Source: Lysobacter sp. BMK333-48F3
GTDB lineage: Bacteria; Pseudomonadota; Gammaproteobacteria; Xanthomonadales; Xanthomonadaceae
Direction: 5' to 3'
Length of the DNA: 64,000 nucleotides
NCBI RefSeq assembly: GCF_019733395.1
Contig: NZ_JAIHOO010000001.1
Coordinates: 4,883,394-4,947,393, forward strand
Positions within the stretch are counted from its first letter, which is position 1. Each line of letters begins with the position of its first letter. Position numbers and translations under genes: made by a program. The notes under the pieces were generated by a model. The model made no database searches. It was given only the letters and a program-made list of their open reading frames with translations, and was not told the origin of the DNA. Shown in pieces: positions 8,825 through 14,403 of this stretch.

Positions 8825-8881
8825 GCTCAGACCAGCGCAGTTCGGATCAGCGCGGCTCAGATCAGCACGGCTCAGACCAAC
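8825..8881. repeat. Short degenerate tandem repeat, about 15-bp unit
   Basis: Three diverged copies of a unit like GCGCGGCTCAGATCA straddling the stop codon of asnB (GCGCAGTTCGGATCA, GCGCGGCTCAGATCA, GCACGGCTCAGACCA). Probably replication slippage. Confidence 0.5.
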
Positions 8882-10557
8882 GCGGACTGGTGCACACCGG
8901 CCACCGCGCGCCCGGACGGATCGGCGGCGTTGGCGAAAGCCGCGTCCCAGGCGATCGCCGCCGGCGACGAGCAGGCGATCGACTTGCCGCCCGGCACCGT
9001 CTGCGCGCAGGCCTCGCCGGGGAACTGGCGCTCGAACAGGCTGCGGTAGTAGTACGCCTCCTTGGTCTGCGGGGTGTTGATCGGAAAACGCACCGCCGCC
9101 GCGGCGAACTCGCGGTCGCCGACCTGGGCTTCGGCATGCGCCTTGAGGCCGTCGATCCAGCCGTAGCCGACGCCGTCGCTGAACTGCTCCTTCTGCCGCC
9201 ACAGGATCTCCTTCGGCAGATAGCCCTCGAAAGCCTCGCGCAGGACCGCCTTCTCGATCCGTCCGGCCGGCTTGTCGACCATCTTGGCCTGCGCGTCCAT
9301 GCGCATCGCCACGTCGAGGAATTCCACGTCCAGGAACGGCACCCGCGGCTCCACGCCCCAGGCCATCATCGACTTGTTCGCGCGCAGGCAGTCGTAGCTG
9401 TGCAGCGCGTCGAGCTTGCGCACCAGTTCCTCGTGGAATTCGCGCGCGTTCGGCGCCTTGTGGAAGTACAGATAGCCGCCGAAGATCTCGTCCGAACCTT
9501 CGCCCGACAGCACCATCTTCACCCCCATCGCCTTGATCCGCCGCGCCAGCAGGAACATCGGCGTGGACGCGCGGATGGTGGTGACGTCGTAGGTCTCGAT
9601 GTGGGCGATCACGTCCGGCAGCGCGTCCAGGCCCTCCTCGAAGGTGTAGGTGAAGCCGTGGTGCACCGTGCCCAGCGCCTTGGCGGCGATTTCCGCCGCG
9701 GCCAGGTCGGGCGAGCCCTCCAGGCCGATGGCGAAGGAATGCAGGCGCGGCCACCAGGCCTCGGCCTGATCGTCTTCCTCGATCCGGCGCCGGGCGAAGC
9801 GCGCCGCGCAAGCCGCCACCAGCGAGGAATCCAGGCCGCCGGACAGCAGCACGCCGTAGGGCACGTCGCTCATCATCTGCCGGTGCACCGCGCGCTCGAA
9901 GGCCTCGCGCAGCTCCTGCAACGAGACCTCGACCCCGCGCACCGCCTCGTACTCGCGCCACGGCCGCTGGTAGTACTTCACCGCCACCCCGACTTCGCTG
10001 TCGTAGTAGTGCCCCGGCGGGAACGGCGCGACGTCGTCGCACAGCCGCGCCAGCGCCTTCATCTCCGAAGCCACCCACAATCGGCCGTCGGCGTCGTGGC
10101 CCCAGTACAGCGGACACACCCCGATCGGATCACGCGCGATCACGTAGCGGCCGCGCGCCGCATCCCACAGGGCGAAGGCGAAGATTCCGTTGAGCCGGCC
10201 GACCCACTCGCCGATCTCGCCGCCTTCGCGGTACAGGGCGTTGATGACCTCGCAGTCGGACTTGGTCTGGAACGCGTAAGGCGTACCCAGTTGCTGCTCG
10301 AGTTCGCGATGGTTGTAGATCTCGCCGTTCACCGCCAGCGCCAGCTCGCCGTCGGCCGAACGCAGCGGCTGCGAGCCGCCGGTGGGGTCGACGATGGCCA
10401 GGCGCTCGTGGACCAGGATCGCGCGCGGCTCGACGCTGACCCCGGACCAGTCCGGACCGCGGTGGCGTTGGCGCGCCGACAGGGACAGCGCCAGCGGGCG
10501 CAGCGGGCGCAGGTCGGCGCCGGGACGCAGGTCGAACAGACCGAGGATCGAGCACAT
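8872..10557 (-). CDS. asnB: Asparagine synthase B, glutamine-hydrolysing
   Basis: A 561-residue amidotransferase making Asn from Asp, ATP and glutamine. The start at 10557 places Cys2 directly after Met (MCSILGLFD); this Cys becomes the N-terminal nucleophile of the class II glutaminase domain (residues about 1-210, with RHRGPD and the AVNGEIYNH segment). The synthetase domain follows with the PP-loop LLSGGLDSSLVAA and a SGEGSDEIFGGY motif. Length matches E. coli AsnB (554). A CCAGGAG ribosome binding site precedes the start. The mRNA leader encodes an Asn-rich peptide and a terminator, so expression is probably controlled by Asn-tRNA charging. Confidence 0.96.
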   Translation of the reverse strand: MCSILGLFDLRPGADLRPLRPLALSLSARQRHRGPDWSGVSVEPRAILVHERLAIVDPTGGSQPLRSADGELALAVNGEIYNHRELEQQLGTPYAFQTKSDCEVINALYREGGEIGEWVGRLNGIFAFALWDAARGRYVIARDPIGVCPLYWGHDADGRLWVASEMKALARLCDDVAPFPPGHYYDSEVGVAVKYYQRPWREYEAVRGVEVSLQELREAFERAVHRQMMSDVPYGVLLSGGLDSSLVAACAARFARRRIEEDDQAEAWWPRLHSFAIGLEGSPDLAAAEIAAKALGTVHHGFTYTFEEGLDALPDVIAHIETYDVTTIRASTPMFLLARRIKAMGVKMVLSGEGSDEIFGGYLYFHKAPNAREFHEELVRKLDALHSYDCLRANKSMMAWGVEPRVPFLDVEFLDVAMRMDAQAKMVDKPAGRIEKAVLREAFEGYLPKEILWRQKEQFSDGVGYGWIDGLKAHAEAQVGDREFAAAAVRFPINTPQTKEAYYYRSLFERQFPGEACAQTVPGGKSIACSSPAAIAWDAAFANAADPSGRAVAGVHQSALV

Positions 10558-10620
10558 CGGGGTATCTCCAGGAGGGGGTGAGCGGCGGTTGAGGTGGGAT
10601 GGGAAAGCGTTTCGGGGGCC

Positions 10621-10658
10621 TGAAACGCAAGAAGCCCGCACTTCGCAGTGCGGGCTTC
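10621..10658 (-). terminator. Attenuator terminator hairpin in the asnB leader
   Basis: A perfect 12-bp stem, GAAGCCCGCACT and AGTGCGGGCTTC, with a 4-base loop (10631-10658), followed on the minus strand by TTGCGTTTC. It sits 64 bases before the asnB start and 28 bases after the leader peptide stop. Termination here would prevent asnB transcription. The U-run is short, so efficiency needs measuring. Confidence 0.75.
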
Positions 10659-10746
10659 CTGAGCGATTTAGCGTGTGTTGCGCGCGCTAATCGCCGGCCC
10701 GCGGGAGGCTGGCGTTATTGCGGTTATTGTTGTTGGCGCGCACGTT
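10631..10746 (-). promoter_or_regulatory. Asn-responsive transcription attenuator of asnB
   Basis: Elements in transcription order on the minus strand: Asn codons (10746-10714); GCGGGC at 10702-10697; a stop-codon hairpin GCGATTAGCG/CGCTAAATCGC (10694-10685 with 10673-10663, one bulge); and the terminator, whose 5' arm contains GCCCGC at 10655-10650. GCGGGC can pair with that GCCCGC to form an antiterminator enclosing the stop-codon hairpin. A ribosome at the UAG (10689-10687) would cover GCGGGC and allow termination. One stalled at the Asn codons would leave it free and favour readthrough. The sequence elements are seen; the switching is inferred from trp/his-type attenuation. The antiterminator stem is only 6 bp, all G-C. 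Confidence 0.7.
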
Positions 10747-10818
10747 GGCCACGGCCGCGCAGGCGCTGCCGGCGCGAGTGGCGCTGCGGCGGTCGGCGAT
10801 GGCGGACGGGAAGGTCAT
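10687..10818 (-). CDS. Asn-rich leader peptide of asnB (attenuation leader)
   Basis: A 43-codon reading frame upstream of asnB: MTFPSAIADRR at the start, then ANVRANNNNRNNASLP, ending AGD and UAG. Seven of 43 residues are Asn, six of them within seven codons (AAC AAC AAT AAC CGC AAT AAC). AAT is otherwise rare in such GC-rich DNA, which argues against chance. AGGA lies 7 bases before the ATG, inside a small dyad GATCCT/AGGATC. A TTGCAT, 17-base spacer, CAGGAT pair overlaps this site and could even give a nearly leaderless mRNA. The peptide itself probably has no function; its translation senses charged tRNA-Asn. A GTG at residue 23 would give a shorter leader but lacks a ribosome binding site. 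Confidence 0.75.
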   Translation of the reverse strand: MTFPSAIADRRSATRAGSACAAVANVRANNNNRNNASLPRAGD

Positions 10819-10942
10819 GAGCCGATCCTGCTTGAGGATCGCCCCGGATGCAAGCGCCCCCTCCCCACCGCCCCCGGGAGTGCGCCCCGCCGGCCGCCCC
10901 TCCCCCCTTGAACACTCCGCTCTCGCAACCCCGCGAGACCAG

Positions 10943-11001
10943 TCCCATTCCCCATTCCCCATTCCTGACTCCCGACTCCCGACTCCCGATTCCCGATTTC
11001 C
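10943..11001. repeat. 7-bp tandem repeat tract (GGGAATC/GGGAGTC type)
   Basis: Read on the minus strand, successive units are GGGAATC, GGGAGTC and GGGAATG, slightly degenerate. It lies between the divergent asnB leader and the acylase gene. The same unit forms a cleaner tract at 23741-23800. Confidence 0.75.
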
Positions 11002-11042: not shown

Positions 11043-13460
11043 ATGGCCAAATGGATCAGGCGCGCTCTGCTCGCGCTGTTGTGCCTGTCGTTGATCGGCG
11101 CCGTCGCAGCCTGGTGGCTGCTGCGCGGCAGCCTGCCCCGCCTGGACGGCGAACTCGCCCTGGCCGGCCTGTCCGCGCCGGCGAAGCTCGAACGCGATGC
11201 ATTGGGCGTGGTCACGGTGGACGCCGCGAACCCGGCCGACGCGGTGCGCGCGCTGGGCTTCGTCCACGCCCAGGAACGCTATTTCGAGATGGACCTGTTG
11301 CGCCGCACCGCCGCCGGCGAGCTGTCGGCGCTGTTCGGCGAACGCGCGCTCGACTTCGACCGCCGCCACCGCGTGCACCGCCTGCGCGCGCGGGTGCAGC
11401 AGCATCTGGCCGAGTTCAGCGGCGACCAGGCGGCGCTGCTGCAGGCCTATGCCGAAGGCGTCAACGCCGGCCTGCGCGGGCTGTCGCGCAAACCCTGGCC
11501 TTATCTGCTGCTGCGCAGCGAGCCCGAGCCGTGGACCGTGGCCGATTCGGCCCTGGTCGGCTATGCGATGTACTTCGACCTGCAGGGCGGCGACAACGCG
11601 CGCGAGTTGGCGCTGTGGCGGATCCGGCCGCATGTGCCGCCGGCCCTGTTCGCCCTGCTGACCAATCCCGGCAGCAGTTGGGACGCGCCGCTGTACGGCG
11701 CGCCGTTCGGCGATGCGGCCCTGCCGAGCGCCGAGCAACTGGACCTGCGCAAGCTGCCGGCGCCGGCCTCGGCCACGCTGATCCCCCTGCCCTTCCTCGA
11801 CGAGATCGGCAGCAACAACTTCGCCGTCGCCGGCAGCCTGACCGCGGACCGCCGCGCGATCGTCGCCGACGACATGCACCTGGGCCTGCGCGCGCCCAAC
11901 ATCTGGTTCCGCGCGCGCCTGCGCTACCCGGATCCCGGCGCGCCGGACGGCCGCATCGACGCCTCCGGCTTCACCCTGCCCGGCCTGCCGGCGGTGGTGG
12001 TCGGCAGCAACGGCCATGTCGCCTGGGCCTTCACCAACAGCTACGGCGACTGGGCCGACTGGTCGCTGCAGCCCGGCTGCGCCGCCGGCGCCCCGCCCGC
12101 GAGCTGCGCCGGCCTGCGCGTGCACGAGGAAACCATCGTCGTCGCCGGCCGCGCGCCGGAAAAACTCATCGTCCGCGAAACCGCCTGGGGCCCACTGCTG
12201 CACGACAACGCCGACGGCAGCGCGTTGGCCCTGCGCTGGAGCGCGCACCTGCCCGGCGCGCTCAACCTCGGCCTGGCCGAGCTGCAGCGCGCGGGTTCGG
12301 TCGACCAGGCGCTGCAAGCGGCCCGCACGGTGGCGATGCCGGTGCAGAACCTGGTGGTCGGCGACCGCGCCGGCAAGATCGCCTGGCGCCTGCTCGGCCC
12401 GATTCCCGAACGCGAGGGCTCGTGTACCACCGACGCGCTGGCCGAGAACGCCGATGCCGACGGTCGCCCCCTGCAGGTACCTACCTGCCCGCCGTGGACG
12501 ATTCAGACTGCGGATGCGCCGGACCTGGTGGCGCCGCCGTCGGGGCGTTTGTGGACCGCGAACACGCGTACGCTCGACGGCCTGGAACTGGAACGCATCG
12601 GCCAGGGCGACTATGTGCTCGGCGCGCGCGCCGGCCAGATCCGCGACGGCCTGTTCGCCAAGCAACGCTTCAACGAACGCGACCTGCTGGCGATCCAGCT
12701 CGACGACCGCGCGCTGTTCCTGCAGCGTTGGTGGCGCTTGCTGCAAGACCAGGGCCGGCACGCGCAGCAAGCCGGCGACTCGCCGGCGCTGGCCGCGCTG
12801 GCGCAGGCTGCGCAGCGCTGGGAAGGCCGCGCCGAACCGGGCTCGGTCAGCTACCGCATGGTCCGCAACTGGCGCCGCGCGGTGTTCATCCGCATCGCCA
12901 ACGGCCTGACCGCACCGGCGCAGGCGGCGTTGGGCGCGCAGTTCGAAATGCCCGACCTCAAGCAACTCGAAGGAGTGATCTGGCCGCTGCTGAGCCAGCG
13001 CCCGGCGCACCTGCTGCCGCGCAGCGAACGTTCCTGGGACAGCCTGCTCGAGCATGCCGCGCGGGACGTGCTGGACGAACTCAAGGTGCCGCCGGGACCG
13101 AACGCGGCCGCGCAATTGGCCAGGCACCCCTGGGGCGAGCACAACACCGCCTCGATCTGCCATCCGCTGGCCTCGGCCCTGCCCGGCTTCGCCCGCGGCG
13201 CGCTGTGCATGCCGCCGGACCAATTGCCCGGCGATGCGGCGATGCCGCGGGTGCAGCGGCCGAGCTTCGGTGCGTCCGAGCGCATGGTGGTATCGCCCGG
13301 TCACGAAGCCGACGGCATCGTGCACATGCCCGGCGGCCAGAGCGGCCATCCGCTATCGCCGTTCTGGGGCGCGGGCCACGACGATTGGGTCCACGGGCGG
13401 CCGACGCCGTTCCTGCCCGGGCCGGCGAAGTACAGGCTGGAGTTGCGGCCGATCGAGTGA
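11043..13460 (+). CDS. Penicillin acylase family N-terminal-nucleophile hydrolase
   Basis: An 805-residue exported or membrane-anchored amidohydrolase. Residues about 8-27 are one hydrophobic segment (LLALLCLSLIGAVAAWWLL). The precursor has an alpha-chain region (AALGFVHAQER-like motif near residue 75, typical of the family) followed by the autocatalytic site. Ser257 in GSNNFAV becomes the N-terminal nucleophile of the beta chain after self-cleavage. Asn and Arg residues expected in the active site follow (VGSNGHVAWAFTNSYGDWAD). Family members hydrolyse penicillins, cephalosporins or acyl-homoserine lactones; the preference of this one cannot be read. GGAGG lies 8 bases before the ATG. Confidence 0.9.
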   Translation: MAKWIRRALLALLCLSLIGAVAAWWLLRGSLPRLDGELALAGLSAPAKLERDALGVVTVDAANPADAVRALGFVHAQERYFEMDLLRRTAAGELSALFGERALDFDRRHRVHRLRARVQQHLAEFSGDQAALLQAYAEGVNAGLRGLSRKPWPYLLLRSEPEPWTVADSALVGYAMYFDLQGGDNARELALWRIRPHVPPALFALLTNPGSSWDAPLYGAPFGDAALPSAEQLDLRKLPAPASATLIPLPFLDEIGSNNFAVAGSLTADRRAIVADDMHLGLRAPNIWFRARLRYPDPGAPDGRIDASGFTLPGLPAVVVGSNGHVAWAFTNSYGDWADWSLQPGCAAGAPPASCAGLRVHEETIVVAGRAPEKLIVRETAWGPLLHDNADGSALALRWSAHLPGALNLGLAELQRAGSVDQALQAARTVAMPVQNLVVGDRAGKIAWRLLGPIPEREGSCTTDALAENADADGRPLQVPTCPPWTIQTADAPDLVAPPSGRLWTANTRTLDGLELERIGQGDYVLGARAGQIRDGLFAKQRFNERDLLAIQLDDRALFLQRWWRLLQDQGRHAQQAGDSPALAALAQAAQRWEGRAEPGSVSYRMVRNWRRAVFIRIANGLTAPAQAALGAQFEMPDLKQLEGVIWPLLSQRPAHLLPRSERSWDSLLEHAARDVLDELKVPPGPNAAAQLARHPWGEHNTASICHPLASALPGFARGALCMPPDQLPGDAAMPRVQRPSFGASERMVVSPGHEADGIVHMPGGQSGHPLSPFWGAGHDDWVHGRPTPFLPGPAKYRLELRPIE

Positions 13461-13501: not shown

Positions 13502-13562
13502 GGTCGCGGCCTGTGACCGAAGGAAATCCCGGTGGAACCCCGCTCCCTCGAGGGAGCGGCTG
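13502..13562. repeat. REP-like repeat and 20-bp palindrome next to the IS insertion
   Basis: GTCGCGGCCTGTGACCGAAG followed by GGAAATCCCGGTGG, closely matching the copy at 1893-1935, then a perfect palindrome CCGCTCCCTC/GAGGGAGCGG at 13540-13559. The palindrome may also terminate the acylase transcript. The insertion sequence begins nine bases further on. Confidence 0.6.
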
Positions 13563-13570
13563 ATTTTTTG

Positions 13571-14403
13571 GGTAGTTCCCTACGAATCTGGACCAGATTA
13601 GGCTGGTTCCAGATGCAAAAATGTCCTGTTTGCCAACGTGCGCGGCCATGGAAATTGAGCGATGGACGGCTCAAGTGCCGGGCGTGCGCCCATCGCTTTC
13701 GTCCGGCCGTCTTGGCCTGGGAATCGGTCCGATTGAGCGCTTCCCAGAAGCGGCAACTGATCGAACGTTTCGCTCTGGGCGTACCGGTCTACCGGCAGCG
13801 ATTCCGGCCCGTATGCAGCCCGGCCACGGCAGAAAAGTTCTACCGCGTCCTGCGGGCTTGCTGCGCCTTCGAAGAGCAGTGGCGAGGGCCGTTCGATGGG
13901 GTCGTGGAATGCGACGAAACTACGTTTGGCGGCATACGTCATGGCAAAACCGGTTGGGGCGCCGCCGGCAAGGTGATCGTGTTCGGCATCGTCAAGCGCA
14001 ACGGCCAGGTCAAGGCCATGCCGATCGCGGCGCACGATCGCGACAGCGTGATGCAGCAGATCGAGGCGCACACCCGCGAAGGGTCGCTGTACTACACCGA
14101 CCGCTGGCAGGCGTACGCCACGCTGAAGCTACGAGGCGACCACGTGATGATCCGCAAGGAGAAGGGCAAGCCGGTCGGACGCGACCACATCAACGGCATC
14201 GAAGGCTTCTGGAGCTACGCCAAGAACTGGTTAGCCCCGTACCGTGGGGTGCCCCGCCAATTCTTCCATCTGTATTTGGGTGAAGTTTGCTACCGCTACA
14301 ACCACCGGGCCGAAGATCTGCAAGCCTTGCTGGACAAGGCTCTGCGGGTCATAGACCTTGACCAAATCACTCCACTTTTGGTCCAGAAACGTTAGGAATT
14401 ACC
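13571..14403 (+). mobile_element. IS1595-family insertion sequence, intact
   Basis: An 833-bp element with imperfect terminal inverted repeats: GGTAGTTCCCTACG... on the left and, reverse-complemented, GGTAATTCCTAACG... on the right, both ending TCTGGACCA, 20 of 25 positions identical. It is flanked by a perfect 8-bp target duplication ATTTTTTG (13563-13570 and 14404-14411), the length expected for this family. It carries one transposase gene. It inserted between a REP-like repeat and a GTAGGAGCGGCG repeat, so no gene is disrupted. The intact ends and duplication suggest recent insertion. Confidence 0.92.
13613..14395 (+). CDS. IS1595-family (ISXO2-like) transposase
   Basis: A 260-residue DDE-type transposase. 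The start at 13613 is used because it lies inside the element; an upstream in-frame ATG at 13532 is outside the left inverted repeat. The N-terminus is a zinc ribbon (KCPVC and CRAC). Catalytic residues fit the ISXO2-like domain: Asp101 in ECDETTFGG, Asp163 in TDRWQAY, and the His192-Asn194-Glu197 cluster in HINGIEGFW. No frameshift or stop is seen, so the enzyme should be functional. A perfect match of all motifs makes the family call secure. Confidence 0.93.
   Translation: MQKCPVCQRARPWKLSDGRLKCRACAHRFRPAVLAWESVRLSASQKRQLIERFALGVPVYRQRFRPVCSPATAEKFYRVLRACCAFEEQWRGPFDGVVECDETTFGGIRHGKTGWGAAGKVIVFGIVKRNGQVKAMPIAAHDRDSVMQQIEAHTREGSLYYTDRWQAYATLKLRGDHVMIRKEKGKPVGRDHINGIEGFWSYAKNWLAPYRGVPRQFFHLYLGEVCYRYNHRAEDLQALLDKALRVIDLDQITPLLVQKR

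Follow-up and report, generated by a model that had tools for sequence, protein, structure and literature searches.

The asnB gene in the 64,000-nt stretch of Lysobacter DNA analysed here (the window) is preceded by an element that we interpret, from sequence comparison and fold modelling, as an asparagine-specific ribosome-mediated transcription attenuator, a reading to which we give a probability of about 0.92. On the minus strand, the order of the parts is TTGCAT, 17 nt, CAGGAT, 6 nt, ATG, a 43-codon ORF, a spacer, a 12-bp hairpin, GGAG and asnB. In the proposed mechanism, transcription would begin with the leader AUG or no more than about one base away from it, and a ribosome would load at the 5' end of the RNA without a Shine-Dalgarno sequence. 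When charged tRNA-Asn is scarce, this ribosome would wait on a run of Asn codons, with its leading edge just short of the sequence GCGGGC (segment 2), which would then be free to pair with the 5' arm of the terminator, together with a hairpin around the stop codon. Formation of this antiterminator would allow RNA polymerase to read into asnB. When asparagine is plentiful, the ribosome would reach the stop codon and cover segment 2, and the terminator would form. The asparaginyl-tRNA synthetase gene asnS is present in the genome of the window, and free asparagine can therefore feed the tRNA-Asn that would be sensed.

The leader ORF and its predicted promoter

The asparagine leader peptide ORF (10687..10818, minus strand) extends from an ATG at 10818 to a TAG ending at 10687. 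Checked base by base, its 43 codons include 7 for Asn, six of which are packed into the 7-codon run AAC AAC AAT AAC CGC AAT AAC (NNNNRNN; 10714..10734, minus strand), exactly as the preliminary description had claimed (43 codons, seven Asn, six in a seven-codon run with two AAT). The same description had named the downstream gene asnB, which proved correct: the product of the putatively controlled gene (8872..10557, minus strand) matches the glutamine-dependent asparagine synthase B family NF006949 with 855 bits against a cut-off of 499 (E=1.9e-257).

The covariation, promoter and fold analyses rest on 125 loci with a leader, one of which, G207, is excluded wherever 124 loci are given. The predicted leader promoter of the window consists of a -35 element TTGCAT (10848..10853, minus strand) and a -10 element CAGGAT (10825..10830, minus strand), the latter 6 nt before the leader ATG. 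The search was for a YANNNT -10 box with TTG 16-18 nt ahead of it, and gaps of 0-59 nt between this pair and an in-frame start codon were scanned. Gaps of 6 nt predominated (70 loci), with 25 loci at 7 nt and 2 at 5 nt, and no other gap was found in more than 4 loci; 97/125 loci at 5-7 nt compare with a mean of 2.4 and a maximum of 7 in a random-codon control. All 95 promoter-coupled ATG or GTG codons located 6-7 nt from the -10 box, whatever the frame, turned out to be in the frame of the Asn codons (95/95). By family, the strict rule holds in 95/107 loci of f1, which we infer to be the Xanthomonadaceae (Lysobacteraceae), in 2/14 of f12, by the same inference the Rhodanobacteraceae, and in 0/3 of f2; a relaxed rule holds in 15 of the 17 f2 and f12 loci, a figure without a control, compared to 2/17 for the strict rule. 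CAGGAT is the -10 hexamer in 36 of the 97 loci, followed by TAGCGT (12), TAGGGT (11), TACGGT (9) and others that are similar, and TANNNT boxes are found in many other genera.

From this distance of 6-7 nt between the -10 box and the AUG, a leaderless leader mRNA is predicted, its first base being the A of the leader ATG or one beside it, and the leader is probably translated from this mRNA. The AGGA that had been described earlier as a ribosome binding site is indeed present at 10829-10826, but its reading as such is doubtful because it overlaps a -10 box that stands 6 nt before the start, and the box stands 5-7 nt before the start in 97/125 loci; it is more likely part of the -10 box. The strongest competing explanation keeps the same attenuator and gives it a conventional 5' UTR, with AGGA as Shine-Dalgarno sequence and transcription starting further upstream. 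It draws on the position of AGGA in the window, where 7 nt separate it from the ATG, and on the Shine-Dalgarno-like tetramers at 40 of the 97 promoter-coupled leader starts. We consider it unlikely: CAGGAT accounts for the -10 box at 36 of the 97 starts and only 3 of the 40 tetramers occur with a -10 box lacking AGGA, whereas asnB itself, preceded in the window by GGAG (10566..10569, minus strand), has a Shine-Dalgarno-like tetramer in 97/97 of the same loci, and the -10 to start codon gap of 5-7 nt is far more frequent than in its control.

Predicted competing structures of the leader RNA

The terminator announced in the preliminary description as a perfect 12-bp stem is confirmed as GAAGCCCGCACT-GCGA-AGTGCGGGCTTC, which is GC-rich with a GCGA loop. 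Its 5' arm (segment 3, AGGAAGCCCGCACT) lies at 10647..10660 and its 3' arm (segment 4, AGTGCGGGCTTCTT) at 10629..10642, both on the minus strand; the latter is followed by GCGTTTC, a U tract that is weak and interrupted in the genome of the window. Segment 2, the antiterminator strand GCGGGC (10697..10702, minus strand), starts 11 nt past the last Asn codon and sits inside the last codons of the leader. A hairpin enclosing the leader stop codon, also part of the earlier description, is present in the predicted fold (GCGATTAGCG / CGCTAAATCGC; 10663..10694, minus strand), where it stacks inside the antiterminator. Further upstream, GCCAGCC (10707..10713, minus strand) is a possible segment 1 that could pair with GGCCGGC (10699-10693) and so hide segment 2. 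In a 26-locus alignment, this 1:2 hairpin has 84.6% of its cells paired, which equals the shuffled level, and shows no compensatory change, so that a protective 1:2 hairpin is not supported by covariation.

The claim that GCGGGC pairs with the 5' arm of the terminator gained support from both conservation and covariation. The leader strand is paired with the core of the 5' arm at 5/5 positions in 104 loci and at 4/5 in 20 (n=124), a score taken at the best offset per locus, so that 124/124 by itself flatters the pairing; the best exact Watson-Crick run of the antiterminator is just 5 bp in 23/125 loci. A leader with CAGG pairs with CCTGC in the 5' arm in 11/11 loci, and CCTGC occurs in none of the other 114, which all have CCCGC (103 with CGGG in the searched part of the leader, 11 with neither motif). 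At the best offset, the covarying core base pair is A-T in 10 loci and G-T in 1, at a different offset. The 3' arm of the terminator retains G, forming a G.U wobble, in 9 of the 11 CAGG/CCTGC loci, and therefore the 5' arm follows the leader and not its terminator partner. Evolution here gives direct evidence for the alternative fold, since a single base varies in step with the antiterminator and not with the other arm of the terminator. In a tree built from asnB at 61 loci, the leader base and the arm base need 5 changes each, and the well-supported branches provide 3 independent leader/arm pairs, of which 3/3 agree, too few for a significant sign test. The position adjoining the core is C-G in 72 loci, T-A in 24 and C-A in none, with other mismatches in 23 and weak backing from the tree. 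Position 5, for which 39/61 loci were usable on the tree, offers weak tree-based covariation (a mean of 1.3 of 3 independent pairs concordant, 0 opposite and 1.7 without difference).

The duplex formed by the leader strand of a locus with its own terminator arm has a mean energy of -18.7 kcal/mol versus -16.4 kcal/mol for swapped partners, and the observed mean is reached by 0/10000 permutations over 96 distinct pairs whose relatedness was not controlled. In the 26-locus alignment, the antiterminator and the terminator both beat shuffles in paired cells, double-change cells and covariation score, and in paired cells they also surpass every slid version; neither stem beats shuffles in the number of pairs with double changes or in pair types. 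The terminator has compensatory A-U/G-C pairs at two positions. The compensatory stem changes suggested earlier as a check on the element are hence present in the antiterminator (CAGG/CCTGC, 11/11) as well as in the terminator.

These pairings bear on a second explanation, according to which the hairpin is the plain terminator of a gene for an Asn-rich small RNA or small protein and asnB is transcribed from its own promoter. In its favour, termination would yield a discrete RNA of about 190 nt, and within the genus the leader peptide has a conserved C-terminus, ASLPRAGD or ASLPRADD. A plain terminator would not need pairing between leader and arm, however, and the CAG/CGG codon near the C-terminus tracks the terminator arm, so that antiterminator pairing accounts for the C-terminal codons. 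Between genera the C-termini differ while the Asn codons and the pairing are kept, and the leader peptides as a whole diverge widely (e.g. NNNNRNNASLPRAGD, NNALANNRARPMRVCD, ANNRNANNGCPRGG and NNANTNNARNLGRVGV) with persistence of their Asn runs. We regard this explanation as very improbable.

How the position of the ribosome would affect an attenuator of this kind was modelled by folding the RNA downstream of a ribosome with its A site at each codon in turn and its leading edge set 12 nt beyond the first base of the A site. With the 3' arm of the terminator not yet transcribed, the predicted antiterminator probability averages 0.90 at the last Asn codon (>0.5 in 115/124 loci), 0.75 and 0.40 at the next two codons and 0.28 at the stop codon (124 loci); 9/124 loci do not exceed 0.5 at the last Asn codon and 14/124 stay above 0.5 at the stop. 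For the genome of the window, the probability is 1.00 at the last Asn codon, drops to 0.59 and 0.00 at the next two codons and is 0.04 at the stop. Codons ahead of the Asn run also give at least 0.97 here, because segment 2 stays free whenever a ribosome is held upstream of it. In E. coli trpL, the positive control, the probability falls from 0.79 at the Trp codons to 0.41 at Thr and to 0.02 at the stop. The model thus switches at the last Asn codon, in line with the earlier claim that the spacing fits ribosome-mediated attenuation, and folding under ribosome constraints, as the preliminary description had proposed, separates the last Asn codon from the stop. Folding without a ribosome, which it had also proposed, predicts antitermination as well (0.83 before segment 4 is made). 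Once the RNA is complete, the equilibrium fold favours the terminator for all ribosome states in the model (mean at least 0.83), and the same holds for trpL, so that antitermination must be kinetic.

Occurrence across asnB loci and within the genome

The survey covered 199 asnB upstream regions, drawn from genus, family, order, class and phylum of the window genome, and looked for a small Asn-rich ORF with a terminator after it. This number omits G065, whose contig begins at asnB, and G141, in which asnB is in two pieces, and includes 22 of the 46 asnB matches outside the order. Leader and terminator are present in 107/110 same-family loci with a close asnB (at least 71% identity), the exceptions being G022, G067 and G109. 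They are found in 20/20 loci of the genus, all 20 leaders of which have the NNNNRNN run, and in 14/15 loci of f12 and 3/3 of f2, compared to 2/71 elsewhere. Within these 71, the leader is absent from 14/14 loci of a second same-family asnB lineage (63-67% identical; G033, G060, G064, G069, G075, G078, G082, G083, G108, G114, G129, G134, G140 and G154), from 14/14 f9 loci, from 17/18 f7 loci (exception G207) and from 24/25 remaining loci (exception G610). Among the 161 loci first examined, a terminator accompanies the Asn-rich ORF in 125/126, G022 being the one without; four of these 125 terminators, with loops beyond the limit of the finder, were assigned by a hand-set motif. In 38 loci, an Asn-containing ORF occurs in 8, and only G610 among them has a terminator.

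Across genera, the comparison called for earlier finds the Asn codons kept, and the distance from stop codon to terminator is 21-38 nt in 124 loci, 108 of which fall within 24-32 nt. Named records with the leader belong to Xanthomonas, Stenotrophomonas, Pseudoxanthomonas, Luteimonas, Lysobacter, Thermomonas, Arenimonas, Rhodanobacter, Dyella, Fulvimonas and Frateuria. Out of 80 named loci, which overlap the surveyed genomes and were not added to the 199, an Asn-rich ORF is present in 34/37 with at least 74% identity (all except L234, L240 and L257) and a terminator, by a simple pattern, in 33; the remaining 43 include 6 with an Asn-containing ORF, none of which has a terminator by that pattern. 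The record of L240 is titled Rhodococcus sp. RD6.2 and contains an asnB that shares 76% identity with the first sequence in the query alignment and has no leader; titled as an actinobacterium, it is possibly mislabelled or contaminated.

Two loci outside the clade deserve separate mention. L171 (G207, 1/18 in f7) has an Asn-containing small ORF and a terminator about 144-75 nt before a distant asnB, which may be of independent origin or due to chance. G610 also has such an ORF and a terminator, but its Asn codons are far from the stop. We do not take these two cases as independent asparagine leaders arising outside the clade.

The 420 nt upstream of asnB in the window genome were subjected to dinucleotide shuffling, and Asn per 10 codons was scored in any small ORF: 0/2000 shuffles reached 4, the real value being 6, and because no shuffle matches the observed clustering, the Asn run upstream of asnB is not a product of chance. 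Over the 125 loci with 20 shuffles each, 9/2500 shuffles reached 4 Asn within 10 codons, as opposed to 118/125 real loci, which had been preselected for at least 3 Asn; the unselected figure is the 107/110 for close same-family loci. A chance Asn-rich ORF in front of an ordinary terminator, which G207 and G610 (2/71 outside the clade) may exemplify, is a negligible explanation for the element given these shuffles and the conservation across three families.

Elsewhere in the same genome, no Asn-rich small ORF was found in the 450 nt before asnS and no His-rich leader before hisG, and a search for Leu/Ile/Val-rich ORFs before an ilvB-like gene returned a single ORF with three nested starts, which lies about 1.2 kb upstream and is not leader-like. 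The hisG and ilvB-like comparison is not a fair test because both genes seem to lie inside operons. The codon pattern NNNxNN occurs at 3 sites genome-wide, the asnB leader among them. In the window itself, a repetitive GGGAATCGGGAGTCGGGAGT... tract (10940-11000, minus strand) lies between the leader promoter and a divergent gene (11043-13460, plus strand) that encodes a penicillin-amidase family acylase (PF01804, 427 bits), weakly PvdQ-like, and an IS1595/ISXO2-like transposase gene (PF12762) is located at 13532-14395 on the plus strand.

Relation to known attenuators and significance

Attenuation by a leader peptide is known for trp, his, leu, thr, ilv and phe in Proteobacteria. The asnB element resembles these attenuators in a leader rich in codons for the end product, in mutually exclusive antiterminator and terminator structures and in a switch just past the regulatory codons. 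It differs from them in its Asn codons, its asnB target, its leaderless promoter geometry and the location of the antiterminator strand within the last leader codons. In Firmicutes, Asn-specific T-box riboswitches sense the charging of tRNA-Asn at the RNA level by binding the tRNA directly. Sensing of tRNA-Asn charging by RNA for the benefit of asparagine genes would be common to both systems, but the asnB element has a leader ORF in place of direct tRNA binding and no Rfam match. At the gathering threshold, Rfam yields 0 matches, T-box included, in the window or in five related loci. Below the threshold, the highest scores on the leader strand are 28.4 of 55 bits for Thr_leader and 22.6 of 50 bits for Leu_leader; the Thr_leader model also scores 21.8 bits on the other strand, and these scores indicate at most a resemblance of kind.

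Excerpts from PMC1262725, PMC2965389 and PMC1183508 mention several attenuated amino acids and name asparagine in none of them. No asparagine attenuator was found in a library of open-access papers, including excerpts from PMC2965389, PMC3771888, PMC7298713, PMC1262725 and PMC1183508. The closest counterpart for the start is trpL/rnTrpL of Sinorhizobium meliloti, the attenuated RNA of which, according to excerpts from PMC7298713, begins at the leader ATG, as predicted for the asnB leader, and may act as a leaderless mRNA; in the same excerpts, it differs in responding to tryptophan, in belonging to an alphaproteobacterium and in that its RNA and peptide also act in trans. By the structural tests run, the type of mechanism is known, its asparagine specificity appears to be new and its start is unusual.

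We lean, with some reserve, towards a new class of asparagine attenuator whose leader would be leaderless by design across Xanthomonadaceae and Rhodanobacteraceae, with the start codon transcribed first and ribosome loading at the 5' end itself synchronising ribosome and RNA polymerase. Its promoter geometry would offer a natural system in which the two are kept in step without a Shine-Dalgarno sequence. An asparagine type conserved in multiple genera belonging to at least two families would lengthen the short textbook list of amino acids and, if true, would explain how asparagine synthesis is controlled in these bacteria.
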